Shown here in pieces: positions 1 to 21,000 of a stretch of DNA of 43,966 bases. Under the pieces are notes generated by a model. It searched no databases, was not told where the DNA came from, and saw nothing but the letters and a program-made list of their open reading frames with translations. Source of the stretch: Pricia sp. (GTDB lineage: Bacteria > Bacteroidota > Bacteroidia > Flavobacteriales > Flavobacteriaceae); assembly GCA_024635875.1 (NCBI GenBank), contig JAGXIC010000112.1:1-43966 (forward strand), written 5' to 3'. Every line of letters begins with the position of its first letter. Positions within the stretch are counted from its first letter, which is position 1. The position numbers and the translations under genes are program-made.

Positions 1-150
1 GCAAAAATCGTTCCCGCTATCAAATTTTCTTTGGAAGAAGCGCTGGAATATATCCAAAAGGATGAATATGTCGAGGTGACGCCGAAACATCTACGACTTC
101 GCAAGATTTACTTGACCGAGGTGGACAGGAAGCGGAATAAGATTGCCTAA
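1..150 (+). CDS. typA: TypA/BipA translational GTPase, C-terminal end (partial)
   Basis: Frame 1 is open from the first base to a TAA at 148-150 and encodes the last 49 residues of a protein. The stretch FSLEEALEYIQKDEYVEVTP followed by LRLRKIYL and a basic tail matches the conserved C-terminus of TypA/BipA, a ribosome-associated GTPase of the EF-G family involved in ribosome assembly and stress or cold adaptation. The GTPase domain lies outside the window, so only the C-terminal domain end is seen. The gene converges with the minus-strand glucokinase that ends at 201. The assignment rests on recognising this tail and is fairly firm. Confidence 0.85.
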   Translation, partial: AKIVPAIKFSLEEALEYIQKDEYVEVTPKHLRLRKIYLTEVDRKRNKIA

Positions 151-200
151 ATTTATGACTGACCTGCAAGTTGAAACCCAAAACTCTGCAGGTCGCATTT

Positions 201-950: not shown

Positions 951-1118
951 TTATCTGTATTAAAATATTAAGACGGAAATTTACGAAAACTTTTTATGGT
1001 TGTGGGGAATTTGACTCGCAAACCACCTAACGTATACTCAAACATACCATTAGCGTATACCAACATCTAACACTCTTATCAAATGCCTTTGTAGAAGGTG
1101 TACGTGAGCTAGTTTGCC

Positions 1119-1170
1119 GAATCCCTCCGTCAGCATAGCTGCCACTTCCCTTTGAAATAAAGGGAGGAGC
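1119..1170. repeat. REP-like palindromic intergenic element
   Basis: The 236-bp gap between the glucokinase and sulfatase genes holds two adjacent small palindromes. One is CAGC-ATA-GCTG at 1131-1141. The other pairs TCCCTTT with AAAGGGA around a GAAAT loop at 1147-1165. The arrangement looks like a dispersed intergenic repeat. It lies just downstream of the sulfatase stop, so it could also act as a weak transcription barrier, but there is no T-tract. Copies elsewhere in the genome cannot be checked here. Confidence 0.4.
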
Positions 1171-1186
1171 TTTTGATTGTCTCGTT

Positions 1187-2677: not shown

Positions 2678-2777
2678 ATTCCCTATTTTTTTCTCTGTGT
2701 ATCGCTGTAATTCTTTGGCAATTCTTACTATTTTTGGTCTCAGCTTCATGGAATTTGGAATTTGGTGCTTGGATTTT

Positions 2778-3665: not shown

Positions 3666-3681
3666 AAGTTGCCGTAAGGCC

Positions 3682-3991
3682 TAGCTTCAAATCCCTACGA
3701 ATGATGGCACCAACTTGGCAAGGGCAAATGAAGCCAATCCGCTAGGCACTTTTGACGAGGTTAACCTACCGACCTCCGAAGGGGAGTTCAAGGTTTGGAA
3801 CACATTGGACGCCTCTCATTCCTTTCCCAATGGAAAAACCTATGGTAGCACCGTTGAAACCCTTTTTAAAACCGGAGAACAAGACCAAGCTTCAAGGGGT
3901 GCTTACTTATTATGTGCTTGTGGGAAAATACAGCGCTAAAGATGTTATGAAAGGCACCAAAAGTCCGGCCCCGACAATGCCCCCATTTTGA
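3682..3991 (+). pseudogene. Decayed coding remnant, family not recognised
   Basis: Between two minus-strand genes a plus-strand frame reads as convincing protein (for example ANPLGTFDEVNLPTSEGEFK and WNTLDASHSFPNGKTYGSTV). It then shifts frame near 3900: frame 1 runs into unlikely sequence, while frame 2 continues sensibly as LTYYVLVGKYSAKDVMKGTK and stops at 3991. There is no good ATG at the front; the frame begins after a TAG at 3682-3684. This looks like the inner part of a gene broken at both ends with one frameshift. I do not recognise the family. The rest of the 3666-4054 gap shows nothing else. Confidence 0.5.
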
Positions 3992-4054
3992 GAAAATGGC
4001 GACGGTGGGTCGATTTTTTTCAAGATGAACCCTAAGGCTGTATAAATTTAGGTT

Positions 4055-5566
4055 TTAATCATCCGCTCCATCGCTTCGGGCTTCGGAAATGGCAATTTCA
4101 CCAACGGCAACTCCAGAATTTCTTCCCTCTAGGTTATCGAATTCGTAATGAATGCCGCCATAGACCCTAGAATCGCCCGCCTCTATAAATTGGCGTTCGA
4201 GTTCTTCCCTTTGATCGGGAAAGAGATAGCCCAAAACCGTTCCAGCCGTTGAAGAGAAAGACGAATGGCCTGAGGTATAGGAAGGAAAGTTGGGTATGCC
4301 CGTCGCCGTCTTGATATCGGGATCGATTTGTGAAGGTCTAGGAAAATAGTATTTGTATTTGGCGTACCAGCAGAGTATGCCACTGTCCATTACCGCACGG
4401 TTCATCAACGAAAACGTCCTCGCCGTTCGTACTTCGCTCCATTGCACCTTGACCAAGAGTTCTTCCGCGATCTCGTTCCAATGGCCAGGCGGGGTATACG
4501 TGCCGCCACCATCGGCCCAAAATTCGGATATACGCCATTGTTCCCGGGACCTGTTCTCCGAAATACTTTTTACATAGGCGATATCCTTCTTAAAAGCTTC
4601 CGTACCCACTTTGGGGGGCGGCGGTGGCAAGGCCGAAAATACGGCCGTTGAATCGAGCCAGGTCTTTACGGTTCCGTACATGGGCAAGATTGGGTAGACT
4701 TTTGGGCTTGCGATACTGATCCAGGCAACAGGAACGGTGGTCGGGTCTATCTTAAAAAAAGAATGATAGGTTTCTACCGGATCGGCGGCCTTGCTCATCC
4801 TGTCGGTGCTGGCGCGTTCCAAAATTTTGGAGGCTACGAAATCGCCCAATTGCCAACCGTCCGCAATATCACTTTCGGTACCCGCTCCGCCCCATCGGAC
4901 GGTATTGACTTGCTCTTGGGCCAACCCATTGAGAAATTCGGCCTCCAATGGAAATAACGTTTTTAGAATTTTTAGGGAAGTTCCTGCAATAACGGCTTGT
5001 TCAGAAGGGTAGGATGGTAATTCCGTGTTTGCAAATTGGACATCGATACCATTGTCCGTTAAACTGGGGGCTGGACGGTTGACAGAATACTTGAGCTTCC
5101 AAGTAGCGATAAGGGCATCGTGCTGTGCCACGCTCAGCATGGCATAGACTCTGGACGCAAACGGTGGGTTGGCGACCGGCTTTTTAGGGTTGGTCGCTGA
5201 CCCTGGTGCCGGGGCTACATTGTACTTGGCGACCAGTTCCCGCAAGATCTTGTTCCAGCGAAGTACCCCACCTGAGGCCCAATAGCGCACTTTCCTTTCT
5301 TGTTCGGGAGTCCTTTTTACAGTAATCGCGACCAATTCTTCCAATTCCGACCTGTACGTATCAGAATCTACATCGGCCGGTGCCGGGAGGGAAATTTCCG
5401 TCAGGTAATCCATCTTCATGACGTTTTGCCAATCGCCTGCATCGGCATCCAAAGAAACGGAATTTGGAACCGGAAGTTCGGCCATTTCCGGAATATCCTC
5501 TTCACAGGAAATAATGGACAAGGCAAGGCAACTGATTATAAGGACATACTTTAAATTGAATTTCAT
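4055..5566 (-). CDS. Vanadium-dependent haloperoxidase/PAP2-type phosphatase lipoprotein
   Basis: This is a 503-residue protein with a lipoprotein signal (MKFNLKYVLIISCLALSIISC). The three vanadate/phosphate-site motifs of the V-haloperoxidase/PAP2 superfamily are present in order in the C-terminal half: KYKYYFPRP (K-x6-RP), PSYTSGHSS with the catalytic His near residue 434, and SRVYGGIHYEFDN (SR-x5-H). Such enzymes use vanadate and H2O2 to oxidise halides, or act as acid phosphatases; sequence alone does not separate the two. It is likely tethered at the cell envelope. It follows the barrel-protein gene by 13 bp and is probably co-transcribed with it. A second, distantly related enzyme of the same superfamily lies at 10540. 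Confidence 0.85.
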   Translation of the reverse strand: MKFNLKYVLIISCLALSIISCEEDIPEMAELPVPNSVSLDADAGDWQNVMKMDYLTEISLPAPADVDSDTYRSELEELVAITVKRTPEQERKVRYWASGGVLRWNKILRELVAKYNVAPAPGSATNPKKPVANPPFASRVYAMLSVAQHDALIATWKLKYSVNRPAPSLTDNGIDVQFANTELPSYPSEQAVIAGTSLKILKTLFPLEAEFLNGLAQEQVNTVRWGGAGTESDIADGWQLGDFVASKILERASTDRMSKAADPVETYHSFFKIDPTTVPVAWISIASPKVYPILPMYGTVKTWLDSTAVFSALPPPPPKVGTEAFKKDIAYVKSISENRSREQWRISEFWADGGGTYTPPGHWNEIAEELLVKVQWSEVRTARTFSLMNRAVMDSGILCWYAKYKYYFPRPSQIDPDIKTATGIPNFPSYTSGHSSFSSTAGTVLGYLFPDQREELERQFIEAGDSRVYGGIHYEFDNLEGRNSGVAVGEIAISEARSDGADD

Positions 5567-5579
5567 CGAATACTGGTTT

Positions 5580-6479
5580 TTAAGGTTGTGTATTGGAAAC
5601 GGAAAAGTTATAAATCAACGAGGCCGTAATTCGGTCGGATTTTCCGATGTTCTTTCCCGAAAGGGTAAAACCGGTGGAAAGGGCCACGCCAAAGTTTTCC
5701 ATTTTTGGGATTGGGTGGTACAACGTGAACCCGATCCGGCTAAAGTCGATCTCGTTGCTGGGGAACGGTACCCCGGGACCAATATTGCTACCGTTGCGCG
5801 AATTCTGATGTTGGAACCAAGCATCTGCGTACAGCTTTTTATAGCTGCCGCCTGCCCTTACGATGTAGTCCCATGCGTCTGGAACACTTACCTCCAATTC
5901 CCGATCAATATCTACATTGCCCCGTTTGCTATATCCTAATTGACCGGCGACAAAAAGACCAAGCGCCGTTCGGTATTGGGCAATAAAACGCCCTTCCAAC
6001 TGGGTAGACTGGCTACCGATGGAAACCGGGGCATCGGCAATGTAATCGGATAACGGCGTAATTACCCCGATAGCACCGATCATCGAAAGCTTGCCCTTCT
6101 CGGAAAAATCCTTTTCGAAAAACCTTCCCTTTAGAAAAAGGCTGATATCCTGAAAGTCTTTTTGGTCTGACCAGAAACCTTGAGTGGCCTGTGTCTCGAT
6201 ATAGGGCAACGAAACGACAACATCCAAATAATCGGTAAGCCCGCCCGCAGCGAAGAAATTGACGGAATTGGTCTTTATGGTACCCAAATTTTCGTTTTGG
6301 GTTTTGTTCATACCCACAAAATAGGTGTCGTAGGATTCATGGCTATAACTCAGGGCCGTAACTAGTTGCCCCTTTCCACGCATAAAACCATCGAGAAGGC
6401 CTTGGGCATAGGAACTGCCTATAGCGAATGTGATGAACAATAAGGTAACTATGAAGTGGTTTTTTTTGATCGGTTCCAT
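5580..6479 (-). CDS. Outer-membrane beta-barrel protein next to the haloperoxidase
   Basis: The start is set at the ATG at 6479, which begins a clean signal peptide (MEPIKKNHFIVTLLFITFAI ending SYAQG); the upstream extension of the frame to 6635 has no signal character. The mature protein of about 275 residues is made of alternating strands with aromatic and glycine residues and ends with TASLIYNFSVSN, as expected of an outer-membrane barrel. It is reminiscent of the phenol-degradation MetA-like outer-membrane family, but the match is weak and no substrate can be assigned. It is the first gene of a two-gene unit with the haloperoxidase-like lipoprotein 13 bp downstream, so the two may work together at the outer membrane. 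Confidence 0.75.
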   Translation of the reverse strand: MEPIKKNHFIVTLLFITFAIGSSYAQGLLDGFMRGKGQLVTALSYSHESYDTYFVGMNKTQNENLGTIKTNSVNFFAAGGLTDYLDVVVSLPYIETQATQGFWSDQKDFQDISLFLKGRFFEKDFSEKGKLSMIGAIGVITPLSDYIADAPVSIGSQSTQLEGRFIAQYRTALGLFVAGQLGYSKRGNVDIDRELEVSVPDAWDYIVRAGGSYKKLYADAWFQHQNSRNGSNIGPGVPFPSNEIDFSRIGFTLYHPIPKMENFGVALSTGFTLSGKNIGKSDRITASLIYNFSVSNTQP

Positions 6480-6775
6480 ATAGACGTTTCGGTTTTCGTG
6501 TTCAATACTATTCATTATCCCGATGTAAAAGGCAATTATTACATGAATGGTGGAGATAGGTTGACGAAATGTGGTATTTGACGGATAAAAATGTTTTGGG
6601 TTTCTATAGCCGAATCGCATTGAGGTAGTTTGCATAATAGGTATTGATTAAGGCAATACTGGGAATTGTTTCCATGGGCATAACTACTACATGGCTCAGT
6701 TTTTGTGGCATTCAAATAACATCAAAATCCTGAAAATCCTCAACAAGAATTTTTGGGCTACCAACACCTAAGAAC

Positions 6776-7021
6776 ATGTTCGACAAATTGACCGACTACC
6801 TTAAACAAAAACCCCGTACCGTTTGTCTTTCGGAATTGGATCGTCTCTACAAGGATACTATTTCTTGCTTGACGACGGATATCCGAACAGCCTATTGCCA
6901 GAGGCTCATGGAGCGCACGAGGTATGATCTTGGGAACATGGGGGTCAACGAAAAGAGGGAACCGTTGGAACAACTCTTATTGGCCGCGGAACGGGAAATC
7001 TGCAATTTATCCACTCGCTAA
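6776..7021 (+). CDS. Small hypothetical protein, uncertain
   Basis: An 81-residue frame with an ATG start, alone in the 649-bp region between the divergent barrel gene (start 6479) and the histidine kinase (start 7129). Its composition is protein-like, charged and probably helical (LTDYLKQKP, MERTRYDLGN, EPLEQLLLAAEREI), with three cysteines and no signal peptide or membrane segment. No family is recognised, and there is no obvious ribosome-binding site. An antisense frame covers much of it but looks less plausible. It could be a regulator-sized protein or a chance frame. Nothing else coding is seen in 6480-6775 or 7022-7128. Confidence 0.4.
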   Translation: MFDKLTDYLKQKPRTVCLSELDRLYKDTISCLTTDIRTAYCQRLMERTRYDLGNMGVNEKREPLEQLLLAAEREICNLSTR

Positions 7022-7128
7022 ATCGAGCGACTATTTATGGACGTGGGGTACCACGGTCCGTGGCTTCCTTTTGCTTCCCATCTAAATAAAACATACTTTG
7101 GCAGTTCAAAATCCATTGCTCCCGCCCA

Positions 7129-9774
7129 ATGAAATTTCGATATTCCATAGTAACCCGTTTTGCGCTCTTCTTTACGGGATTGCTGGTTTTGTGTATCCTT
7201 CTAACGGGATATCTGGTGTTCAAAAAGGCATCGGGGGTCATTATAGCCTATTCGCAGGAGCGCATCACGCATACCTCCGAACTGGCGGAGCAGTCTTTTT
7301 TTGCCCTGTTGAACGAAGTGTCCAAAGATATCGCCGTTATCTCCGCGAGCCCGACCCTTCAAAATTATGTGAACGATCCTAAGGGGAAAACGGTAGACGA
7401 CCTAGAGCGGCTCTTCCGTATTACGCTCGAAAACAAAACGGCCTACTTTCAGATACGTTTGATAGGCATCGAAAACGACGGTAGGGAAGTCGTCCGGTTC
7501 GATAAGAACAATGGGGAAATCTTTGTACCCGATACATTGCAGCAAAAAGGAGACCTAGACTATTTTCAGGAAACCATAACCTTAAGCGAGGGCGAGTTTT
7601 ATTTTTCAAGGATAAATCTAAACGAGGAATTCGGCGTTATCAGTAATCCCCCGACACCGACGGTAAGGGCGGCAAGCCCGATTTTCAATACCGAGGGCAA
7701 CATGAGGGGAATCTTAGTCATCAATATTGATCTTGGTGGACTGTACAGTACCCTTGAACAAATATCGGGAACGGAATCACGGCTCTATCTCATAGACTCG
7801 GAAGGCCAATATCTGTATGCTCCCGAAGCACAAAAACAATTCGGACTGCAGACCCAAAATGGCTTTAATTTTTTTAAGGATTTCAGGATAGCCCGCGATA
7901 CCGTCATCTTACAAAAAAATCACTTTTGGGCACTAAAGGACGCCAAAGATAATACCTATCTGAGCAATAGCAGAGAACTGTCCTATTTCCAGGGGAAGCG
8001 GAAAGTCTACCTGATTTCATCGATCGAGCAGAACGTGCTTTTACAAAGTGCCCGGACCGTTCGATCGGAAAGCATAAAAATTTTAGTGTGGGTCTGTGCA
8101 ATTTCAATATTGATTTCCTTGCTGTTCGTCCGCTTTTTCTCAAGGAAAATCAATCAGGTGACGAAGGCCATCGCCAACTATGACAAAGGGATTACGGATG
8201 ATATGGAACTGCCGACCAACCGAAAAGACGAGATAGGGGTCTTGGCAGATACCTTTACCAAAATGAAGGGCAAAATCGACCGGAACGTACAAGAATTGAA
8301 TACCGCACTGAAAAAGGAGCAGCACGCAAAAAAACAACGGGACGAATTTTTACAGAACATGAGCCATGAAATGCGTACGCCCTTGAACACGATTTTGGGG
8401 CTGACCCAACTGCTGCACAAACGGTCGCCCAGGGTAGAGCAACTTCCTATCATCGACTCCCTCGAAAAGAGCGCAAACAACTTGGCAGGCCTAATGTATG
8501 ATGTGCTAGACCATCAAAAGCTGGTGGAAGGGAAATTGCGAATTTCCCCGGTGCAGACGAACATAGCCGAACTCCTAAAGGACATCCACTCCAATTATGA
8601 ATACGAAGCCCTGCAAAAGGGGTTGGATTTCCATTTGGATCTTGACAAAAAACTTGAAACGCTCAACTATATAACGGACCCATTGCGACTATCACAAATT
8701 GTTACCAATCTGGTGGTAAATGCCCTGAAATACACCCCAATAGGAAAAGTCGGCCTTTCGGCAAAGATTGTATCGGGCAAGGCCGAAGTACTGTATATAA
8801 AGGTAACCGATACCGGTATCGGCATCCTCCCGGAAAATTTGGACAAGATAAACGAACGCTTTTTTAGGGAAAAGGAAGATTTGACCGGAAGATATGGCGG
8901 CTATGGGCTCGGGCTATCCATCGTGCGACAATTGACCGAATTGTTCGGGGGCAGCTTAAGAGCAGTGTCCGAGAAGGGGTCGGGCTCCGAATTCAATGTA
9001 CTGATTCCCGTTGGGGTTTCCGAAGCACCAAAAACCCAAATCGATACTGCTGCCAAAGTCAATATCCTGCCGCAGTTAAGCGGCCAATACCAGGTTCTGT
9101 ATATCGAGGACGACCCTTCAACAATCGAACTGATGCGCCATATTCTCAATGACGGGCAGATTTTGTTGTATCAAACGGACAGTGTGGAAAAGGCATCGGA
9201 ACGTACCGATACCCATCCGCCGGACTTGATTATAAGTGACTTGATGTTGGAAGACAAAAGCCTTGAACCTATGCTCACGGATTGGATAGAGACTAAAAAA
9301 ATAGGCTGTCAGCTCATTTTGGCCTCTGCCTTGGAACCGGAAGTAATGAGGCGGATAAGTACATGGTATTTTCAAAAGCCGTTCAACATAGACGATTTGA
9401 AAGATACCGTTTACCGATTGTTGGGTGCCCATGAGTTCAACGCCCCAGATTTTTCAACTATCTATACCAATTACGACAATGATTCGGCCAAGATTTCCAA
9501 GGTACTACAATTGCTACGGGAAGAGTTCGAAACGTATCTGAATAGGATAAAAAAGGCAGAAAATACAAAAGGCCAAAAAGAATGGGACGCCATACTACAT
9601 AAACTCATTGCCCATATCCACACCTTACAATTGACCGACCTTCAGAAAGCATTGCCACAAAAAGTGATGGCCTTAAAAAAAGACGATGTATCCGGCATAT
9701 CGAATATTTTCGCCTATTATCTGTGTTGCATCCGTTGCGAGGCACGGCTCAATTCAAAAGATCGATCTTCTTGA
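7129..9774 (+). CDS. Hybrid sensor histidine kinase with Cache-like sensor, receiver and Hpt-like tail
   Basis: This 881-residue membrane kinase has a first membrane segment at about 11-31 and a periplasmic sensor of about 280 residues that looks like a double Cache domain (PTVRAASPIFNTEGNMRG). A second membrane segment lies at about 318-337, then a HAMP linker and HisKA with phospho-accepting His413 in MSHEMRTPLN. An HATPase follows with N box (LVVNALKYTP), G1 (DTGIGI) and G2 (GYGLGLS), then a receiver starting YIEDD with Asp704 in ISDLMLED and the conserved Lys in FQKPF. The last roughly 100 residues resemble a helical Hpt domain (HKLIAHIHTLQL) but lack a textbook Hpt motif, and end in an odd CCIRC cluster. 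Its 3' end overlaps the LytTR regulator gene on the other strand by 26 bp. That regulator is the likely partner, by position only. Confidence 0.9.
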   Translation: MKFRYSIVTRFALFFTGLLVLCILLTGYLVFKKASGVIIAYSQERITHTSELAEQSFFALLNEVSKDIAVISASPTLQNYVNDPKGKTVDDLERLFRITLENKTAYFQIRLIGIENDGREVVRFDKNNGEIFVPDTLQQKGDLDYFQETITLSEGEFYFSRINLNEEFGVISNPPTPTVRAASPIFNTEGNMRGILVINIDLGGLYSTLEQISGTESRLYLIDSEGQYLYAPEAQKQFGLQTQNGFNFFKDFRIARDTVILQKNHFWALKDAKDNTYLSNSRELSYFQGKRKVYLISSIEQNVLLQSARTVRSESIKILVWVCAISILISLLFVRFFSRKINQVTKAIANYDKGITDDMELPTNRKDEIGVLADTFTKMKGKIDRNVQELNTALKKEQHAKKQRDEFLQNMSHEMRTPLNTILGLTQLLHKRSPRVEQLPIIDSLEKSANNLAGLMYDVLDHQKLVEGKLRISPVQTNIAELLKDIHSNYEYEALQKGLDFHLDLDKKLETLNYITDPLRLSQIVTNLVVNALKYTPIGKVGLSAKIVSGKAEVLYIKVTDTGIGILPENLDKINERFFREKEDLTGRYGGYGLGLSIVRQLTELFGGSLRAVSEKGSGSEFNVLIPVGVSEAPKTQIDTAAKVNILPQLSGQYQVLYIEDDPSTIELMRHILNDGQILLYQTDSVEKASERTDTHPPDLIISDLMLEDKSLEPMLTDWIETKKIGCQLILASALEPEVMRRISTWYFQKPFNIDDLKDTVYRLLGAHEFNAPDFSTIYTNYDNDSAKISKVLQLLREEFETYLNRIKKAENTKGQKEWDAILHKLIAHIHTLQLTDLQKALPQKVMALKKDDVSGISNIFAYYLCCIRCEARLNSKDRSS

Positions 9775-10429
9775 GCAGGTCTTTTTCATACCGTTGGCTG
9801 ACCGGAATATGGTCTTTCCCGATTTCGATGGCATTATTATCTATGGAGTCTATTTTATTAAGATTTACGATATACGAGCGATGTACCTTTTGAAAGAAAT
9901 CAGGAAGTTTGGGCACCAGATCTTTCAAGGTCATTAATGTCAATATTTTCCGGTCCGTTAAGACCACGGCGATATAATTGGCCTCTGATTTAAAGTACTT
10001 TACATCCTCCAACTGTATTTTTACCAACTTGTTGCCTTCCTTTATGAAAAGTCTAGATTCCTTATCACGGTGCTTGGAAAGAAAACTTTGGGCCTTTTGA
10101 AATCCCTTAAAAAAGCGGGTAAAATCAACGGGCTTGACCAAATAATCGACAATCTGGTCATACGTGTAGGAGTCGGAGGCAAAATCTTTGTGCGAAGTGA
10201 CCATAATAACGGCTGTAGTGGTATCGATGATTTTTAAAATATCCTTGCCCGTAATATCAGGTAGATCGAAGTCTAGAAGAACAAGATTAAAATGGGAGCC
10301 GTTGATAAAATTTATAGCCTCAAAACCGGATGTCGCCACAACAATTCCGCTCACTTCGTGGATTTTGCCACAAAAATGCTCGAGAAGATTGCAGATTAAG
10401 GGGTCGTCATCAACGATAAGGCAGTTCAT
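9749..10429 (-). CDS. LytTR-family response regulator
   Basis: The start is placed at the ATG at 10429, because MNCLIVDDDPLICNLLEHF is a normal receiver beginning; the frame extends to 10474 without domain character. The receiver covers about residues 1-120 with acidic pocket DDD at 7-9, phospho-acceptor Asp53 in LVLLDFDLPD, and the Lys in YLVKPVDF. The C-terminal half is a LytTR DNA-binding domain (LFIKEGNKLVKIQLEDVKYF, then FFQKVHRSYIVNLNKI). It is a transcription factor, convergent with and overlapping the hybrid kinase gene by 26 bp, and divergent from the second haloperoxidase-like gene, whose promoter region (10430-10539) it may control. I did not find a clear LytTR direct-repeat site there. 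Confidence 0.9.
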   Translation of the reverse strand: MNCLIVDDDPLICNLLEHFCGKIHEVSGIVVATSGFEAINFINGSHFNLVLLDFDLPDITGKDILKIIDTTTAVIMVTSHKDFASDSYTYDQIVDYLVKPVDFTRFFKGFQKAQSFLSKHRDKESRLFIKEGNKLVKIQLEDVKYFKSEANYIAVVLTDRKILTLMTLKDLVPKLPDFFQKVHRSYIVNLNKIDSIDNNAIEIGKDHIPVSQRYEKDLLKKIDLLN

Positions 10430-10539
10430 AAGCTCGTCCAATAAAGTAAAGGGTTCATCAATCCATTTGTCCAATTCATGTAAAATATTCTTTTTTTTGG
10501 GTATAAATGTATATCATTGAATAGTAAAATACTGATGAA

Positions 10540-12042
10540 ATGAGGTTAAAAATTATTCTATTGTCCCTATTCGGTGCGCTATCCCTTATGTCTACGAGCG
10601 ATTTGAAGGATACAGAAATTCCATTGCAAAGGGAAACCAAAGAGCCGAGGGGAATGGAAAATGTGGCCTACCAATGGGCCCATTTGGCTTTAGAAGGTAC
10701 GGCGAACGATACCGATAGGTTCAAGCCCAGGCCAACAATCACCTCGCGGTATCTCGGACTGATCTTTACCTCCATGTACGATGCGTGGACGCGGTTCGAT
10801 GAAAAGGCCAAACCTCTTTATATGAAGAATGTGGAACGCCGACCTGAAATCGAAAGAACCTTAAGTAACAAAGAAATTGCCATCAGTTATGCTGCCTACC
10901 GCGCCCTGAACGAGTACTATTATTCCGATAGTACGATGTTCAGGAACAAAATGGTGGAACTGGGACTTGATCCCGATAATTCGTCCACAGATTCCCAAAC
11001 ACCAGAGGGCATAGGTAACTTGGCGGCCAAAAGGGTCATCGAAATGAGAAAGAACGACGGTGCCAACCAGTACGGGGAAGTAGCCGGATCCAATGGGGAG
11101 CCGTACTTTGACTATTCCGGGTATATGCCTGTTAACGACATAGACAACAATGTGGATATCAATAGATGGCAAGGCAAATATTTTATCGACGAGAATGGTA
11201 ATCCCTATGATCCCGGTTGCCTAACGCCGTACTGGCAAGAAGTTAAACCCCTATTGTTGGAAACCGCTGATCAGTTTCGGCCCGGCCCTCCCCCGATGAT
11301 CGGTTCGGAGCAACTGGAAAAAGAAGTCAAAGAGGTAATCGACCTACAGGCTAAACTTACCCCTGAAAACAAGGCTTTGGTCGAGTTCATGAGGGATGGA
11401 CCGAAATCCGTACAGCAGGCAGGACATTGGCTTAAATTTGCCCAGGATATTTCGCTACGGGACCAACATACGTTGGACGAGGACGTTAAAATGTACTTTT
11501 TGGTGGAATCCGTGGCCATGGATGCTTTTATAGCCTGTTGGGATTCTAAAATGCACTACGATTTTGCCCGACCCTATGCCCTCGTGCACGAATACTACCA
11601 AGATCAGGTCATAAAAGCATGGGGTGGTCCCGAAAAAGGGATGGTACAAATGAAGGGGCAGGAATGGCGGCCCTATTCCCCAGATTCGTTTCTGTGTCCC
11701 CCTTTCCCGAGTTATGTTTCCGGCCATAGCACCATCAGCGGCGGATGTGCGGAGGCGTTGAAACTGTTTACCGGCGATGAGGCATTCGGCGTGGAGGTAG
11801 AACTGGTGCCCGGTGCCCTAACGGAACCCGATAATTTGGGAGACCCGGTCGTACTGGAATTTCCGACCTTTACCGAAGCAGCCGAAATGGCCGGTATGTC
11901 AAGGGTCATGGGAGGTTACCACATTCAGGCCGATAATATCGAAGGTTTGGCATTGGGAAGGAAGATTGCGCAGTATAACTATAGAGAATATTTAAAGCTT
12001 TTGGGAGAGGGAGATGCCCCATTGGCAAAGACCAACAAATAG
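10540..12042 (+). CDS. Vanadium-dependent haloperoxidase/PAP2-superfamily protein, exported
   Basis: This is a 500-residue protein with an N-terminal hydrophobic signal (MRLKIILLSLFGALSLMS), a signal peptide without a Cys lipobox. The vanadate/phosphate-site motifs are all present: KMHYDFARP (K-x6-RP), FPSYVSGHSTISGG with the catalytic His near residue 396, and SRVMGGYHIQADN (SR-x5-H). The long N-terminal helical part (YLGLIFTSMYDAWTRFD) is typical of bacterial vanadium haloperoxidase-like proteins, some of which in marine flavobacteria are iodoperoxidases. Halide choice, or phosphatase activity, cannot be read from the sequence. It starts 110 bp from the divergent LytTR regulator and converges with the slipin gene. 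Its sequence differs clearly from the 4055-5566 protein, so the two are not a recent duplication. Confidence 0.87.
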   Translation: MRLKIILLSLFGALSLMSTSDLKDTEIPLQRETKEPRGMENVAYQWAHLALEGTANDTDRFKPRPTITSRYLGLIFTSMYDAWTRFDEKAKPLYMKNVERRPEIERTLSNKEIAISYAAYRALNEYYYSDSTMFRNKMVELGLDPDNSSTDSQTPEGIGNLAAKRVIEMRKNDGANQYGEVAGSNGEPYFDYSGYMPVNDIDNNVDINRWQGKYFIDENGNPYDPGCLTPYWQEVKPLLLETADQFRPGPPPMIGSEQLEKEVKEVIDLQAKLTPENKALVEFMRDGPKSVQQAGHWLKFAQDISLRDQHTLDEDVKMYFLVESVAMDAFIACWDSKMHYDFARPYALVHEYYQDQVIKAWGGPEKGMVQMKGQEWRPYSPDSFLCPPFPSYVSGHSTISGGCAEALKLFTGDEAFGVEVELVPGALTEPDNLGDPVVLEFPTFTEAAEMAGMSRVMGGYHIQADNIEGLALGRKIAQYNYREYLKLLGEGDAPLAKTNK

Positions 12043-12088
12043 GTCCTTTGGTCAACGGAAGGATGCCGAATCGAATCAACCATCACTC

Positions 12089-12829
12089 TTACTCCTTCTT
12101 AGGGTTTCTAGGCAAAACCTCTTCCGGGAACGGGAAAAGAATGGTAGAGTTCTTTTCGGCGGCTATGTTCGCCAAGGTCTGGTAGAGCCTTAATTTTATA
12201 GCGGAAGGGGACTGGTCGATGAGTTTCCCGGCTTCCAATAATTTTCCGGCGGCCTGTTCCTCGGCAAGGGCCAAGATGATTTGTGCCCTTCGGGAACGTT
12301 CGGCCTCTGCTTGGTTGGCCATCATCCGCTTCATGTTTTCCGGCAATTGTATGTCCTTTATCTTAACATCTATGATATCGATGCCCCATACCACAGTTTC
12401 CTCCAAAACAATCTGCTTGATATTGTTGCCCATTTCTTCGCGTTTGCTCAAAATGGTATCCAATTCTACCTTTCCGCAAACATCCCTAAGGGCGGCTTGG
12501 GACAATTGGGTGATCGCAAATTTGAATTCCTCGACTTCCAGCACCGCTTTTTCGGGATCTAAAATTTTAAAGAAAACCACCCCGTCGATACTGCAGGGCA
12601 CATTGTCTTCCGTCATTACCTCTTGGGATACAATGTTGATGGTAATCACACGGATATCTACGGTCTGAACCGTTTCCACAAAGGGAATAATCCATCTAAA
12701 ACCGGGCTGCAAGGTTTTGATATACTTTCCGAACCGGAACTTTAGCGCCCTTTTATATTCAAAAATAATGCGGATTCCTGATAGCAGGAACAATCCGAAA
12801 AGAATCCCGATAACGAACATTGGATACAT
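12089..12829 (-). CDS. SPFH/band 7 slipin (stomatin-like) protein
   Basis: The 246-residue protein starts with one membrane segment (MFVIGILFGLFLLSGIRII) and continues as an SPFH domain (FRFGKYIKTLQPGFRWIIPF, then VVFFKILDPEKA and LRDVCGKVELDTILSKREEM). It ends in a helical region rich in Ala and Glu (NQAEAERSRRAQIILALAEE). This order is that of bacterial slipins, which form oligomers in membrane microdomains. Many slipins are paired with an NfeD protease partner gene; none is seen here. A second ATG two codons downstream (MFVIG) is an equally possible start. The gene converges with the haloperoxidase-like gene. Confidence 0.88.
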   Translation of the reverse strand: MYPMFVIGILFGLFLLSGIRIIFEYKRALKFRFGKYIKTLQPGFRWIIPFVETVQTVDIRVITINIVSQEVMTEDNVPCSIDGVVFFKILDPEKAVLEVEEFKFAITQLSQAALRDVCGKVELDTILSKREEMGNNIKQIVLEETVVWGIDIIDVKIKDIQLPENMKRMMANQAEAERSRRAQIILALAEEQAAGKLLEAGKLIDQSPSAIKLRLYQTLANIAAEKNSTILFPFPEEVLPRNPKKE

Positions 12830-12994
12830 AATAGAAGGAATTAGATGGTTTGGAAGGCATGATTATCAATGTCGACCCAATGTAAGGTACGGATAATTGA
12901 GGTGGTAGGCAAAATATTAACGTCAGTTCATTGAAAGCTCCAATGTATAGATTTCACGCAGATATTTCATCCGGGAAATTCTCTAATGCTCGAT

Positions 12995-13654
12995 TTAAAT
13001 CGCTCTTAAAATAAGGGAGACAGGTATTTCTTCATCATTCGTTATTTCCCGTAGGTCCTTTACGTTCATATTGCACTCCGCAAAAATGGAAAACCAATCT
13101 TCAAACGTTCGGGCGTACCAATGGTGCCTATCCGTAAAATTGCCCGGAAGGCCTTTCCACGAATCGGTAATTACCTGACCTTCGTACGCTAACCCATTGC
13201 TCAACAGAAAATAGGGATGCAGAGTCTGGACAACCACGCTGCCATTGCAAAAAAGTGCCCTCTTGGTGGCCTCGAACAGTTTGGGAAGCCCTTTTTCCTG
13301 ATAGAGACAGAAATTGAAAACAATGATATCATAGGGAGCTTCCGGGACCGTGTGGCCGGCCACGATATCTTCATAACTCATTTGATAAAAAGATTCAGGT
13401 CCTTTTTGCCTGGCGTTATCCAGTAATTGCCCGATGGCATCAATACCAATACCCTGTTTTCCCATTGCTGTTATGCTCCGGGTCAACCATCCCTCTCCAC
13501 AACCGATATCCAAAATACGTTTCGACGCTGTATCCTTTAGCATCTGGACAATGGCAGGGTTGGTAAACTTTCTCGACGTTATCCGTTGTGAATCTATTGC
13601 TTTGACCCATTCAGAGGCGTTTTGCTCCCAAGATTTGATGATTTCATTTGGCAT
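12995..13654 (-). CDS. Class I SAM-dependent methyltransferase
   Basis: A 219-residue cytosolic protein with the Rossmann-fold methyltransferase motif I ILDIGCGEGWLTR at about residues 44-56. An acidic residue ends strand 2 (GIGIDAI), and post-motif strands include YDIIVFNFCLYQ and VVVQTLHPYF. It fits the ubiE/bioC-like class I group, but no substrate can be named. Its start is 14 bp from a partial copy of the ftsE 3' end (13669-13748), which separates it from nhaA. Confidence 0.82.
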   Translation of the reverse strand: MPNEIIKSWEQNASEWVKAIDSQRITSRKFTNPAIVQMLKDTASKRILDIGCGEGWLTRSITAMGKQGIGIDAIGQLLDNARQKGPESFYQMSYEDIVAGHTVPEAPYDIIVFNFCLYQEKGLPKLFEATKRALFCNGSVVVQTLHPYFLLSNGLAYEGQVITDSWKGLPGNFTDRHHWYARTFEDWFSIFAECNMNVKDLREITNDEEIPVSLILRAI

Positions 13655-13668
13655 ATTCCAATAGTTTC

Positions 13669-13748
13669 ACACCGCCCGTTGCACCACTTCAAAATTCGTG
13701 TTCCCATCGCATTTCAAGATTTTCGACGGACATTTTAGAATCAGGGCA
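13669..13748 (-). pseudogene. Second, truncated copy of the ftsE 3' end
   Basis: Positions 13671-13748 align without gaps to 16877-16954, the 3' end of the intact ftsE, with 8 differences in 78 bases counted by eye. Read in the ftsE frame it gives LILKCPSKILKCDGN, then [10 protein letters not shown] and a TGA stop; the intact gene gives [15 protein letters not shown], then [10 protein letters not shown] and TAG. Several differences are at third codon positions, so both copies were once under coding constraint. Homology ends abruptly at 13749, ten bases before the nhaA stop. It is a remnant left by a duplication or insertion event, not a gene. Confidence 0.85.
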
Positions 13749-13758
13749 AGTTAGCTTT

Positions 13759-15093
13759 TCAAGCTTTTTTCGAGATTACGAAAAACTGAAAAATAACCGC
13801 TCCGACTGCGACGGCAAGTACCGATGCCACTAAAATAGCTAATTTGGCCTGGCTTACATAAGCTTCGTTCTCAAAGGCCAGTTCTCCAATAAAAATGGAC
13901 ATGGTAAAGCCGATACCTGCAAAGGCCGCGGCCCCGTAGAGTTGCGGCCATCTGACTTTTTTAGGTAACTTTGCCATATGTAAGGCGACGGCTAATTTTG
14001 CGGTCAGGGAAATGCCCAAAAACTTACCGAGAACCAGCCCGAGAATTATACCTAAAGATAGAGGTTCGACGAGTAGCCCCAAGTTTTCCGCTTCAATGGT
14101 TAGCCCGGTATTGGCCAGCGCGAACATCGGAAGCACGAAAAAGTTCACAAACGGTTGCAAGATTTTTTCGATACTCTGAAGTGGCGGCACCGCTTTTCGC
14201 GTTGCCTTTCGTATGATATGCACCACTTTCAATTGATCTCGCTTTACAAAAACCGTATCGGTCGATTGGGTTTCCTCAAAGGTGTCTATCAGTTTCCGGA
14301 TATTCTTTATGAACTGGCCCTCTTTCAAATCGACCTTGGCCGGAATGGCGATGGCCGTGATAACCCCTGCGATCGTGGCATGCACGCCAGAAAGAAAAAA
14401 TCCCGTCCAAATTCCCAAAATACCTATCGCAGCATAGAAAAAAGGATTTTTAATGCCGATCTTGTTGGCGCCGACAAGAACAAAAAAGGCCAAAAACGCC
14501 CACAATAGACTTTCGACCACAATGTTTTCGGTATAGAAAAACGCGATGACCAATACGGCAAAGAGATCATCGACCACTGCCAAGGCCGTGACAAATATTT
14601 TTAAGGTGAGCGGTACTCTACTGCTGCCAATCATTGACAACAACACTAGTGCGAATACGATGTCGGTAGCGATGGGGATACCCCATCCCGATATCGTATC
14701 CGTTCCATAGTTCAATGCAAAATAGAACAATGCAGGAAACAAGATGCCACCTACGGCACAAAGAATGGGCAGCAGAGCTGTTTTAAGATTGGCTAGTTCG
14801 CCAGCAATGATTTCCCTTTTAATTTCCAAACCGATGGTAAAGAAGAAAATGGCCATTAGACCATCGTTCACCAGTTTATGCAGGGTCAAGTTCAGTTTTC
14901 CCGTGTTCAGTTCTATTTTCAGAGGATATTCCCAAAACTCGTGAAATTCCTTAGACCATCCCGAATTAGCTAACAGCAGAGCGACGATAACCGAGATTAC
15001 CATAAGTACGCCCGATGCCAATTCGCCCGAAAAAATCGGGGTAACGACCCCTTTAAACCTTTCCCAATATGTTTTTTGCTTTAATTCTACCAT
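13759..15093 (-). CDS. nhaA: Na+/H+ antiporter NhaA
   Basis: A 444-residue inner-membrane protein with about 11-12 hydrophobic segments. The NhaA family hallmarks are present: GLMAIFFFTIGLEIKREI, GWGIPIATDIVFALVLL with the first functional Asp, and ALAVVDDLFAVLVIAFFY with the paired Asp residues of the ion site. It exports Na+ in exchange for H+ and serves pH and salt homeostasis, as expected for a marine cell. The family is usually about 390-450 residues, so this is full length. It lies in a same-strand block with a small membrane protein and a universal stress protein between two copies of the ftsE 3' end. Confidence 0.95.
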   Translation of the reverse strand: MVELKQKTYWERFKGVVTPIFSGELASGVLMVISVIVALLLANSGWSKEFHEFWEYPLKIELNTGKLNLTLHKLVNDGLMAIFFFTIGLEIKREIIAGELANLKTALLPILCAVGGILFPALFYFALNYGTDTISGWGIPIATDIVFALVLLSMIGSSRVPLTLKIFVTALAVVDDLFAVLVIAFFYTENIVVESLLWAFLAFFVLVGANKIGIKNPFFYAAIGILGIWTGFFLSGVHATIAGVITAIAIPAKVDLKEGQFIKNIRKLIDTFEETQSTDTVFVKRDQLKVVHIIRKATRKAVPPLQSIEKILQPFVNFFVLPMFALANTGLTIEAENLGLLVEPLSLGIILGLVLGKFLGISLTAKLAVALHMAKLPKKVRWPQLYGAAAFAGIGFTMSIFIGELAFENEAYVSQAKLAILVASVLAVAVGAVIFQFFVISKKA

Positions 15094-15221
15094 AGATTTT
15101 TAAAAAGTTAGGGTAAATTTTAGTCCGCTCTGACGTGCGCTAAGAGATTAAAAATCAAAAGCACATGTTTGGCAAGTATAAGTTGCAATTTCGTGCAATT
15201 CCCTTATAAGTGACTAATGCA

Positions 15222-15596
15222 TCATTCACTGTTCCGAAAGTTTGCCCAAAACGAACAAAACAGTGCGAAAATCGCTAGGCTAACCGTAAGCAAATCCACC
15301 AGCTCGACTTCCAGCGACCGACCAGTGATTTTTTCGATTAGGAAAACGATGTAGCTTGATGGTAATTCTCGTTCGCCCAGAGCTCTCAGCACCTGATAGT
15401 GCCAATCCGTCAAAAAGCAGTAGCCCCAACCTTTCCAAAATCCCAATAGTATCCAAGAAACAAAAGTCGCCAATAGCGAGATTAGATTTAGCCTTTTCGT
15501 TCTAGCATAAAGCCATCCAAATAGATTAAAGAGAATCAATAGGGTGTGGAAGATATAAAAAAAGTAACTGGCTAAATATAGTCCTATATCCTTCAT
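15222..15596 (-). CDS. Small membrane protein, DUF2784-like
   Basis: A 124-residue protein with three or four hydrophobic segments (FFYIFHTLLILFNLFGWLYA, LISLLATFVSWILLGFW, and a C-terminal TVSLAIFALFCSFWANF). The central part with GYCFLTDWHYQVLRALGE, then PSSYIVFLIEKITG resembles DUF2784 membrane proteins, where an aromatic helix is followed by a polar loop and a further helix. The resemblance is moderate and the function of that family is unknown. It sits between nhaA and the universal stress protein on the same strand. The upstream gap of 278 bp (15597-15874) shows no other gene or clear signal. Confidence 0.7.
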   Translation of the reverse strand: MKDIGLYLASYFFYIFHTLLILFNLFGWLYARTKRLNLISLLATFVSWILLGFWKGWGYCFLTDWHYQVLRALGERELPSSYIVFLIEKITGRSLEVELVDLLTVSLAIFALFCSFWANFRNSE

Positions 15597-15874
15597 GATG
15601 AGTCGCCAATTTGTTGGGCTTGAAGCTACAATTTAAATTGCCCATTACCCTAAGGTTCAAATGCAATTACGCAAAAAATTGATGGTAACAAATAATCGGC
15701 ATTCTCTCCCCAAACCAATCGCTTATTTCAAAACAGCTATCGCGCGAAATCAATCGGCGTCATTGTCGCGGCCAACATGTATAAAAAATGGAAACCATTT
15801 CGCAGATTTGGAGTTATAAATTTTCTAAGATTTAATCATCGACTAATTTCTCGGGAAGAGATTCTTGGACATCT

Positions 15875-16711
15875 CTATTTTAAGATAAGTAATGGAATGT
15901 CGGTCTCGAAGACCATTTTTTTTCGAAGTCCTGGTTGTAGTACCCTTTCGAAAAATCCGTGCTCACGATAAAATAAAGAAAGTACATCTACGGGATTTTT
16001 AGTAAGAAAATCCGAAATACCAGTAATGGGATCTTTATCATAGAATACATGAAACGAATGTTCTATCTTTTCCAATGTTGTCCGGTATGGGGCAAGAACC
16101 TCTTCTTTTTTAAATTTTGTTTTTTCTTTATCGGAGATATGGATGACACGGAGTTTTGCATTAAAAGCGGTAGAGATTTGAACCAATACGTCTAGCGATG
16201 CTATGTTCTCCAAGGGGTCCGTATCTACTGCCAGACACACCGAATCCATTGTAATGGATTTTAGGTCTTCTGGAATCACTAAAACCGGACAGTTCGATTT
16301 TCGGCTGACCTTTTCGCTATTGGTACCGATAAAAAAAGCTTTTGCGCTATCCGCACCTTGGGTACCCATTATAATCAGACCCGTGTTTTCGTCTTCCGCC
16401 GTTTGACAGATAACATCCACGGCAGACCCCATCCCGATAATCTCGGAAAAGTCTATTTGGCGAAGTTTAGGAAATGCATCGAGAAAATCGGTAAGTCTTT
16501 TCTTGCCTAATTCCCGGTGAGAAACGATGTTTTCCGGTGGAGGACTCGCCAGAGTAGATGCGGAAGGCGCAGCGTTTGGCGCATAGCTTTCCGTGAAGCC
16601 ATGAACAAAAATAATTTTTGAGTGGCATCTCTCGGCCACGACTATCGCATAATTAATGGCTTTTTTTGACGCTTCGGTAAAATCTACGGGAACTAAGAGC
16701 TTTTGGATCAT
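15875..16711 (-). CDS. Universal stress protein, tandem UspA domains
   Basis: The 278-residue cytosolic protein has two UspA folds. The first (residues 1-150) has VPVDFTEASKKAINYAI at the start and ends IIMGTQGADSAKAFFIGTNS, followed by CPVLVIPED, matching the ATP-binding G-x2-G-x9-G-[ST] region with some variation. The second (about 155-278) has VCLAVDTDPLENIASLDVL and ends TDIPLLILK but lacks the glycine loop, so it is probably not an ATP binder. Such two-domain proteins are usual in Bacteroidota. It is in the block with nhaA, which suggests a shared stress role by position only. The AT-rich leader 16712-16872 holds no gene. Confidence 0.88.
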   Translation of the reverse strand: MIQKLLVPVDFTEASKKAINYAIVVAERCHSKIIFVHGFTESYAPNAAPSASTLASPPPENIVSHRELGKKRLTDFLDAFPKLRQIDFSEIIGMGSAVDVICQTAEDENTGLIIMGTQGADSAKAFFIGTNSEKVSRKSNCPVLVIPEDLKSITMDSVCLAVDTDPLENIASLDVLVQISTAFNAKLRVIHISDKEKTKFKKEEVLAPYRTTLEKIEHSFHVFYDKDPITGISDFLTKNPVDVLSLFYREHGFFERVLQPGLRKKMVFETDIPLLILK

Positions 16712-16872
16712 AATCGTATTTTTATGGTTAATAGGGACTTTTAATCTGTACAGTTGATTGTATTTCGTTTTAGTACAACCGACGAATTATAAAATATTAC
16801 CATATCTTTAAAATTTTTAATTGATACGATTTATTTTTTGACACAATAAAACAGCGGTGTAGGTCGAAAAGA

Positions 16873-17556
16873 CTAGACCGCCCGCTGCACCACCTCAAAA
16901 ATCTTGTTCCCATCGCACTTCAAGGTTTTCGACGGATATTTTAGGATCAGGGCATAATCATGGGTCGCCATCAAAATGGTGCGTCCCGATTTGTGGATTT
17001 CCTGCAATACTTTCATGACTTCTACACTGGTCTGGGGATCGAGGTTTCCGGTGGGCTCATCGGCCAAGATAAGTTCAGGATCGTTGAGCAGGGCGCGGGC
17101 GATGGCGATACGCTGCTGCTCGCCGCCAGACAGCTCATGCGGGAATTTAAAGCCTTTGGTTTTCATGCCGACCTTGCCGAGAACCTCTTCGATCTGAAGG
17201 GCCATTTTATGGGAATCTTTCCATCCCGTAGCCTTCAAAACGAAGGCCATATTGTTGTTAATGTTCCGGTCGGGGAGTAGCTTGAAATCCTGAAAGACGA
17301 TACCAAGTTTTCGGCGTAGAAAGGGGATATCCTTTTCACGGAGATTGGCCAAGTCGAAGTCCGCAATACTTCCTGTGCCCTGCTGTAGCGGCAGGTCACC
17401 GTAAAGCGTTTTCATAAAACTACTCTTTCCGCTGCCTGTTTTTCCGATCAGATATACGAATTCCCCCTTTCTTACATCGAGGTTGACCTCGTTCAATACC
17501 AAACTTTCCTTTTGGAAAATAGCGGCGTCTTTGAGTTCTAGAATTGTTTCGGACAT
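16873..17556 (-). CDS. ftsE: Cell division ATP-binding protein FtsE
   Basis: A 227-residue ABC ATPase with Walker A (GKTGSGKSS), Q loop ([20 protein letters not shown]), signature [19 protein letters not shown] and Walker [13 protein letters not shown]. The length and the FQDFKLL/NNNMAF region are those of FtsE, the cytoplasmic ATPase that works with the membrane protein FtsX to control septal peptidoglycan hydrolysis. FtsX is not adjacent here, which is not rare in Bacteroidota. The last 78 bp exist again in diverged form at 13671-13748, on the far side of the nhaA-usp block. Confidence 0.9.
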
Positions 17557-17620
17557 GCTTTGGAATTATGGGCTATTGAATCAATATTCTATGTAAAATT
17601 ACCATTTGCAATCTCATGTT

Positions 17621-17816
17621 GAAGAATTAATAATGAATTGAACCCATTTAGACTTTTTCTTTTACCTACGAATAGCACGTTTTGAAGCTATATTTGCTCA
17701 TTTTTGATTACCCGTAGCCATGCTATGCTATTAAAAATGACTTCCTCTAGCTTCAAAAGCCGATATTCTCGGTTCCAAACAAAAAGTCTAAATGGGTTCA
17801 TTATCAATAATTCTTC
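17621..17816. repeat. Long imperfect inverted repeat of about 196 bp
   Basis: The arms 17621-17716 and 17722-17816 are imperfect reverse complements. The best-matched blocks are 17640-17658 against 17781-17799 (19 of 19) and 17680-17690 against 17748-17758 (11 of 11), with TCATTTTT-type matches nearer the centre. A 37-codon minus-strand frame (17688-17801, beginning MNPFRLFVWNREY) lies inside the structure, but its length makes it doubtful as a gene. The element could be a non-autonomous palindromic transposable element or could form a long RNA hairpin. It fills the otherwise empty ftsE-TPR gap (17557-18033). Confidence 0.6.
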
Positions 17817-17858
17817 TTCCAAAAGTAATACTCTTTTTTTCTTTGCAGCCTTAAAAGC

Positions 17859-17944
17859 TTTGTGCTATTCGCTAAACGCCTTACACTGTGGGCTATTTTA
17901 CGTTAAATGGTAGCGAAAGGCGTAGAGCGCAAAGCGAAAAGCGC
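17859..17944. repeat. Imperfect GCG-rich inverted repeat
   Basis: The segment TTCGCTAAACGCC around 17868-17880 faces AAGGCGTAGAGCGCAAAGCG around 17917-17936 as an imperfect inverted repeat, and the right side itself has short tandem units (GCGCAAAGCG, AAAAGCGCA). It lies between the long palindrome and the TPR gene. It looks like a simple dispersed intergenic repeat; no function can be read. Confidence 0.3.
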
Positions 17945-18033
17945 ACCGCGATATACTTAGATGCCATATTCGCCGTTATTAAAATTAATTAAGGTAATCC
18001 ATATTCTTCGGCTTAACTTATCACTTGGACACT

Positions 18034-21000
18034 ATGTTAAAAAAAATCACCGCTTTTCTCCCTATTTTCTTGGGGATGGTCGTTACAGGGGTATCCCAAG
18101 AGACCAAAATCTACACCCACAACCAGAAAGAATATCAAGACGCCCTAGCACTCTATAACAATGAGCAGTACCAGGCGGCACAGTCCATTTTTTCGAAGGT
18201 CAAACAGAATACCGACAATCTCGAGACGAAGGCCAATAGTGCCTATTTTGAGGCCAATGCCGCCGTCCGTTTGAACCAATTGGGCGCGGATCGTCTGATG
18301 GAAAGTTTTGTAGAAAACTATCCGACTTCTACCAAGCGGAACTCCGCCTTTGTCGATGTGGCGGAATATTATTTCGAGACGGGAAAATATCCGTATGCCT
18401 TGAAATGGTACAATAAAGTGGACCAAAAGGCACTTTCGCGGGGGGAGATGGATAAGTTCAACTTCAATTACGGCTATTCCCTTTTTTCCTCCGGGAAACA
18501 AAAGGAAGCTGAAAGCTACTTGCAAAAGGTCGAGAATTCCCCGAAATACGGTTCGCAATCTAAGTACTACCAAGGCTATATCGCTTATCAACAAGATGAT
18601 TATGATACGGCCAACCAGCGTTTCGACGAGATCAAAGATCCTGAAATTCTCAAAGAGAAAATGGATTACTATCAGGCGGACATGAACTTCAAGCTCGGCA
18701 AGTTCGACCAAGCGATTGCCCTGGCCAAAAAACAAATGGCCAAAAATGACCGGAAAGAAAAGTCCGAATTGAGCAAAATCATCGGCGAGAGCTATTTTAA
18801 TATGGAACAGTATGCGAACGCCATTCCATATCTAGAGGAGTATAGGGGCAAAAAAGGCAAGTTCAGCAATACGGATTATTATTTATTGGGATATTCCTTC
18901 TACCAACAGGGCGATTATGCGAACGCCATCCAACAGTTCAACAAGATTATCGATGGTAAGAATAGTGTATCCCAAAATGCTTACTACCACTTGGCGGAAT
19001 GCTATTTGAAGTTGGATAAAAAACAGGAAGCCCTCAATGCTTTTCGGAATGCATCCCAAATGGATTTTTCTCCCGATATTAAAAAGGATGCCGACCTGAA
19101 CTATGCGCGGTTGAGCTATGAAATCGGTAACCCCTATGAGCCGGTCCCAAAAGTGATTTCCGATTATTTGGCCAAATATCCCAACGGGAAAAATACGCAG
19201 GAGATGCAGGAACTCTTGGTCGATTCGTACATCACCTCAAAGAATTTCGAGGGTGCGATGGAACTTTTGGAAAAGAATCCAAAGTATGCCAGCAAGGCCA
19301 CCTACCAGAAAGTAGCCTATTACCGCGGCATCGAACAGTTTATGGACGGAGATTATGCCGCGGCAACGAACAATTTTAAAAAATCGTTAGACAGTGCCGA
19401 AGATCCCCTTTTCAAAGCCCGCGCCAATTATTGGAAAGCGGAATCTGAATATCTCTTGAACCGTTTCGATGATGCGCTGGTCGATTACATCCAATTTCAA
19501 CAGAATCCGAAAGCAAGATCGACCGCTGAAAATAAAGAACTCGATTACAACTTGGCCTACACCTATTTTAAGTTGAAGGACTACGACAACGCCGTATCCT
19601 ATTTTAATAATTTCACCAAGGCTGGTACTGACGATACCCAAAAAATGTACGACGCCAACCTGCGTTTGGGCGACAGTTATTTTGTGACGAGCCAATATTG
19701 GCCGGCCATCGAAACATATAACAATGCTTTGGCGCTGACGGGTACCGACAAGGCCTATGCCGCCTTTCAAAAGGCCATCAGTTACGGCTTCGTAGACCGC
19801 CGCGACACTAAAATCGAGGAACTGCGCACCTTCGCATCGGCCTACCCGAATTCCAGCTTGCGTGACGATGCCCTTTTCGAACTGGCAAACACCTTGATTT
19901 CAGCTGGAAAAGAGCAGCAGGGGCTTCAGACCTATGATAACCTGAGACGGGAGTACGGCACTAGTCCGTTAGTACCGCAGGCCATGATGCGTCAAGGACT
20001 GGTGCATTACAATTCGAACCGCAGTGAGCAGGCGTTGGGAGAATTTAAATCCGTCGTACGTGACTTCCCGAATACGCAGGAAGCGATTCAGGCCGTTTCC
20101 ACAGCGAAACTGATTTATGTGGATTTAGGCCGGGTCGACGAGTACGCCGCTTGGGTCGAGAACCTCGATTTCGTGGAAGTCACCGATCGTGAACTGGACA
20201 ATGCGACTTTCGAATCTGCCGACAAACAGAATATGGAGGGCAAAAAGGAGGCGGCCATCAAGGGCTATGAAAATTACATCAAGCAATTCCCGAACGGGGT
20301 CAATGCGGTGAAGTCACATTTCAACCTAGCGCAACTTTATTTTGGAAAAGACCAAAAAGAGAAAGCTTTGCCGCACTACAAATTTGTTGCGGATAAATCC
20401 GGTGGTGAATATGCGGAGCAGTCCCTGACCCGGGTCTGTGAAATCTACATCGGAAAAGATGATTACGTGACGGCTATACCGTTTCTCGAACGCTTGGAAA
20501 ATCAGGCGGACATTCAGCAGAACCGCGTTTTTGCACAGTCCAATCTAATGAAGGGCTACTACGAACAAAAAAACTACGCAAAAACCTTGGCCTATGCCGA
20601 TAAGGTATTGGCCGTACCGACCATTGACAATCGTATCAAGAGTGATGCCCAAATAATGATAGCCCGCGCCGCGATCGCTACGGGCGATGAGGCAAAGGCT
20701 GAAACGGCCTATCAAGACGTATTGAACATCGCGACCGGCGGCACTGCGGCCGAAGCCTTGTATTACGATGCCTATTTCAAAAACAAGGCGCAAGATTTCG
20801 AGGCGTCGAACGCTTCGGTACAAAAACTGGCAAAAGATTATTCAAGTTATAAAGAATGGGGCGGCAAAGGACTGGTCATTATGGCCAAGAACTTCTATGC
20901 CTTGGGCGATGCCTACCAAGCGACCTATATTTTGGATAACGTAACGACCAATTTCAGTCAATATACCGAACTGGTCTCAGAAGCCAAAGCGGAGCTGGCT

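Follow-up and report, generated by a model that had tools for sequence, protein, structure and literature searches.

A usp–DUF2784–nhaA block between two copies of the ftsE 3′ end in a Pricia draft genome

How did three genes, those of a universal stress protein, a DUF2784 protein and an NhaA-type Na+/H+ antiporter, come to lie between an intact ftsE gene and a duplicate of its 3′ end? The question is raised by a stretch of 43,966 nucleotides, here termed the window, from a draft genome of the genus Pricia, family Flavobacteriaceae (G000, contig C215; 3.96 Mb in 299 contigs, 79.6% complete). The genus group includes three other genomes, G001, G002 and G003. The locus is a true insertion scar, and its explanation is an ordinary one. 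It is a readable instance of gene capture on a small scale within a genus of the Flavobacteriaceae, in which the scar in the target gene, the block-free site of a sister species and the decay of the displaced end can all be seen. The picture of ftsE, NhaA and mobile elements is left unchanged.

The locus and its counterpart in Pricia antarctica

The features of the locus are shown in Table 1. The gene name ftsE is that of the original prediction and is retained. The names TPR, NUDIX, sulfatase, ROK and TypA, and those of the response regulators and kinases of other loci, were given by eye from protein sequences.

Table 1. Features of the ftsE locus, with positions in the window
Feature	Position	Strand	Evidence and remarks
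ftsE	16873..17556	(-)	Intact, 227 aa; ORF and ABC_tran PF00005; 96% aa identity to P. antarctica
Repeat copy inside ftsE (last 26 codons)	16877..16954	(-)	
usp, universal stress protein gene	15875..16711	(-)	PF00582
DUF2784 gene	15222..15596	(-)	PF10861
nhaA-type Na+/H+ antiporter gene	13759..15093	(-)	PF06965
Orphan ftsE 3′ end	13667..13748	(-)	In-frame stop, decaying; repeat match and blastn
Methyltransferase gene	12995..13654	(-)	ORF; PF13489 and others
SPFH/Band_7 gene	12089..12829	(-)	PF01145; 95% aa to P. antarctica

At the DNA level, the direct repeat is 78 nt in length (13671–13748 and the copy inside ftsE), with a start-to-start spacing of 3206 bp. The two copies are identical at 70 of 78 positions and both end in QRAV followed by a stop codon, which is TGA at 13667–13669 in the orphan end and TAG at 16873–16875 in ftsE. 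This agrees with the original prediction, where eight differences and the same C-terminal residues had been noted. The next-best site for the 78-mer in the window, on either strand, matches at only 37 positions; a chance repeat is therefore rejected. The genome-wide search that had been proposed finds exactly two copies of the segment in the draft genome, as far as its 79.6% completeness allows, and a single DNA match to the ftsE end in each of the three congeners (blastn).

The joints of the repeat are tight: the orphan end comes 10 nt after nhaA, and the methyltransferase start codon is found 12 nt past the orphan stop. There is no clear difference in GC content between the block and its surroundings, and the genes of the 3.2-kb unit do not include mobility families (ORF and Pfam analyses). 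At the RNA level, positions 12500–18200 give no Rfam match at the gathering score. Besides the ftsE pair, the region 2500–18000 shows weak direct repeats of 28 nt only. Between ftsE and the TPR gene, at 17639–17800, there is a palindromic MITE-like repeat with terminal arms of 24 nt that are 96% complementary; in its own genome it gives 36 blastn rows, representing ∼31 distinct places, as some copies match both strands.

By FtsE, Pricia antarctica DSM 23421 is the closest named relative, with 96% aa, and next comes a metagenome assembly that bears the name P. antarctica HyVt-345 (93%). The SPFH gene of P. antarctica lies directly behind ftsE, at a distance of 141 nt. Blastn matches between the window and P. 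antarctica are collinear on both sides, at 16875–17556 (ftsE) and at 12086–12926 (the SPFH gene and its upstream region), and collinearity continues on the side of the TPR gene as well as through the NUDIX, sulfatase, ROK and TypA end at 1–3671. Since the flanking genes are neighbours in P. antarctica, 12927–16874 represents extra DNA in the window, and the block is indeed an addition at the ftsE 3′ end, as had been proposed. The extra DNA holds usp, the DUF2784 gene, nhaA, the orphan end and the methyltransferase gene. The orphan end lies on the SPFH side, where the original ftsE end would be, and aligns to the P. antarctica ftsE end over 13666–13748, stop codon included, with 83% identity (blastn).

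The methyltransferase gene complicates this picture. P. antarctica provides a site without the block, but this site lacks the methyltransferase gene as well: its region occupies 12927–13665, and the P. antarctica counterpart is ∼45 bp. The empty site had been expected to show a methyltransferase gene directly next to ftsE. No such pair is present among 80 named ftsE loci, 78 of which include at least 1.5 kb downstream; an ancestral ftsE–methyltransferase pair is thus rejected, and the actual place without the block is ftsE–SPFH. The distribution of the gene is patchy, its best relatives being a 56% match in G229 and a 54% match in G002 on a contig other than that of ftsE; G001 has a weak 30% match only and G003 none. 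From this patchiness and its absence next to ftsE in P. antarctica, two events, one compound event or a loss in P. antarctica may be envisaged. That the gene needs either a second event, which would be separate from that of the block, or its loss from P. antarctica counts against the explanation preferred below.

Compared with P. antarctica, the window has further extra DNA in a second and larger stretch, at 3672–12085, between the SPFH gene (12086) and the NUDIX gene. It encodes two proteins resembling vanadium haloperoxidase/PAP2, at 4055–5566 (by eye) and 10540–12042 (Pfam), a LytTR regulator (Pfam) and a histidine kinase at 7129–9774 (by eye). The genes right after ftsE vary among four genomes: the SPFH gene in P. 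antarctica, a response regulator and kinase in G002 and G003, and the block here. Individual loci show response regulator, kinase and CheR/CheB-like genes (L007, 8642–14580, by eye), a response regulator and kinase (L086, 16962–18542, by eye) or the SPFH gene (L006, 8684–9566).

The orphan ftsE end

The orphan end has kept its reading frame. Upstream in this frame a stop codon is found two codons away, with no start codon between, and the segment aligns to ftsE ends. That 13671–13748 might belong to a distinct gene family, which would have spoken against an insertion, is accordingly rejected.

The original prediction took several third-position differences as a sign that both copies still encoded protein as they diverged, which is not borne out. 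The eight differences between the orphan end and ftsE are distributed 0/4/4 over codon positions 1/2/3, so that half of them are at the second position, and there are four amino acid changes, Y>C, T>I, K>T and I>N. Between the ftsE genes of the window and P. antarctica, the corresponding differences are 11/2/78. Under this ftsE pattern, at least four of eight differences at positions 1 or 2 have P = 0.018 (Fisher 0.028). Overlapping 78-nt slices of ftsE, compared between the window and P. antarctica, serve as a control: 14 of 202 slices have as many as four differences when positions 1 and 2 are taken together, and differences at position 2 never exceed one per slice. In 79 of the 80 named loci (one was dropped, as its excised sequence lacked a terminal stop), the four changed places are occupied by Y or F, T, K or R, and V or I, and the orphan end has C, I, T and N. 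The even split between second and third positions, together with residues present in none of 79 relatives, argues for decay. Judged by this pattern, the orphan end is best described as a decaying, non-coding scar, not as a copy that diverged while coding.

Third-position differences are found in 4 of 26 codons between the two copies, compared with 78 of 228 between the species. With fewer such differences between the copies, the insertion appears to postdate the split from P. antarctica, and a phase in which both copies were coding need not be assumed. The orphan end has 8 differences from the resident ftsE and 13, 18 and 14 from those of the three Pricia congeners. Across the same 78 nt, ftsE also differs from that of G003 at 8 positions, and the orphan end is therefore not strikingly close to the ftsE of its own genome. 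At the silent and stop differences, P. antarctica sides with the orphan end at 62, 71 and the stop, and with ftsE at 11, 38 and 80. With this 3:3 tie, either copy may be the native one, and either may be the older.

Source of the block and mode of joining

Matches to NhaA with more than 50% identity are present, among 299 genomes of the family, only in G003, G238, G229 and the window's own genome. The match in G001 is distant (38%), and the only one in G002 is a broken 33% piece with an internal stop (G002:C74:69778–70083); G002 seemingly lies outside the genome sets used for NhaA (299), for the broad methyltransferase search and for the FtsE end (397), and was covered by separate searches. 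A usp–nhaA pair in the same order is found in G003 (49/72% aa), G238 (48/70%) and G229 (45/68%). Recurrence of usp upstream of nhaA in three other genomes suggests a functional pair, as far as gene order may indicate this. The pairs stand away from ftsE and have no ftsE end near them. A close usp–nhaA pair occurs in only three of the genomes searched, and no donor joining an ftsE end to the block was found among these. The best relative of the DUF2784 gene (66%) is in G003, at a third place, and 7 of 99 genomes have a match, its own included. In G003, parts of the block therefore occupy separate places, as the DUF2784 relative is away from the usp–nhaA pair. The DUF2784 gene lies between usp and nhaA here; it was not found in the stretches L148, L149 and L150, which have usp and nhaA in the same orientation.

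It is proposed that, once the lineage of this genome had separated from P. antarctica, incoming DNA with usp, DUF2784 and nhaA entered the chromosome at the ftsE 3′ end. Recombination without an integrase would have joined it there and duplicated the terminal ∼80 bp of ftsE. Candidate routes, which we infer from the end product, are a single crossover of a circularized fragment bearing an ftsE end and a homology-assisted illegitimate joining. One copy would complete ftsE. The other, toward the SPFH gene and with the methyltransferase gene now between, is non-coding and decaying. Such a capture with duplication of the ftsE end is considered fairly probable. A partial target duplication without a recombinase match on the contig is what this locus displays, and most of the unexpected recombinants described for E. 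coli conjugation are partial target duplications; 14 sequenced duplications of 109–950 bp are explained there by single crossovers of trimmed circular molecules (PMC3240628). Against it, a donor carrying both the ftsE end and the block was not found among the genomes searched, and the homology is short, ∼80 bp. The 3:3 tie, the equal number of differences between ftsE and that of G003, and the 14 control slices likewise fit it less well. The homology threshold of E. coli RecA is ∼30 bp, as cited in PMC2884548.

The insertion anatomy of the original prediction stands in part: an intact gene is on one side and an orphan end on the other, but an element that brought its own ftsE end is unsupported. 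In its fullest form, this would be an integrase-bearing island with the ftsE 3′ end as attachment site, whose own copy restored ftsE and whose integrase has since been deleted. The direct repeats of a gene 3′ end at both borders correspond to attL and attR, and yet a site-specific recombinase gene was not found in the element: PF00589 has no match on the contig, as the prediction had said of integrases, and 7 matches on other contigs, and PF00239 has none in the genome (79.6% complete). The 3.2-kb unit without mobility families also speaks against an island, as does the distribution of the FtsE end, which has a match in 354 of 397 family genomes and two matches only in this genome; thus none of the 353 other genomes with a match shows reuse of the attachment site. 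At E ≤ 1 the FtsE end has no match among phages (50,697 records) or plasmids (72,556 records), a search with a short query and without a positive control, and an exact degenerate pattern did not find it in viral contigs. This pattern recovers ftsE in the window and in 48 of the 80 named loci but misses the orphan end, so that a decayed or differently coded end would escape it. When the tails of 84 ftsE loci were compared with their own loci by blastn, 9 had short, weak matches of 15–56 nt; some loci represent the same place twice, and this comparison was without a positive control, as the window's two copies are in different loci. These matches are not regarded as ftsE-end copies, and four of them, inverted just after the stop, are perhaps terminator hairpins. 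A plasmid search for the block gives 368 matching records, and the 15 listed match only inside ftsE. Among the papers listed in a search for an ftsE integration site, none contains the word ftsE. An island that lost its integrase is accordingly regarded as improbable.

Repair at a broken ftsE 3′ end offers another path, in which the block was captured during replication restart or fill-in of staggered ends and ∼80 bp were copied twice. It would need no incoming ftsE copy, and both the tight joints and the orphan end being nearer the resident ftsE than those of congeners are in line with it; its end product is identical to that of a single crossover, however, and microhomology at the joints requires a donor for testing. 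Repair is rated unlikely, if less so than the island. Integrase-free joining of incoming DNA is thus the most likely explanation and repair-type copying the second, and the data separate the two poorly. The varied genes after ftsE in four genomes might point to a preferred insertion site in Pricia, used repeatedly by an unrecognised integrase-free route of which one event, its duplicated ftsE end still visible, is caught here; this is very doubtful. Least credible of all is mis-assembly at the repeat: the genome is an incomplete draft of many contigs, but the longest exact run common to the copies is 13 nt, and a random mis-join would not yield extra DNA flanked by genes that are neighbours in P. 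antarctica.

Comparison with known systems

Among well-known cases the closest is the e14 prophage of E. coli K-12, described as leaving a 163-bp duplicated icd end (PMC6379469). The likeness is in the anatomy, an intact gene on one side of the insert and an orphan duplicated 3′ end on the other. However, e14 is a prophage that inserts by site-specific recombination, whereas at the ftsE locus no recombinase was found on the contig and there are three cargo genes only. Without a recombinase and without reuse of the site, the locus is not filed as an e14-type island.

Single-crossover insertion-duplication and homology-facilitated illegitimate recombination, as treated in PMC3240628, are alike in that they are independent of an integrase and can leave a partial target duplication; the ftsE locus differs in being known from its end product alone. 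Homology-facilitated illegitimate recombination has also been proposed for the orphan modules of T6SS effector/Rhs loci, where the former 3′ region is pushed aside by an incoming module and stays downstream (PMC5361080). In the account given there, it is mainly immunity genes and variable 3′ modules that are kept, whereas here the target is ftsE and its displaced end is decaying.
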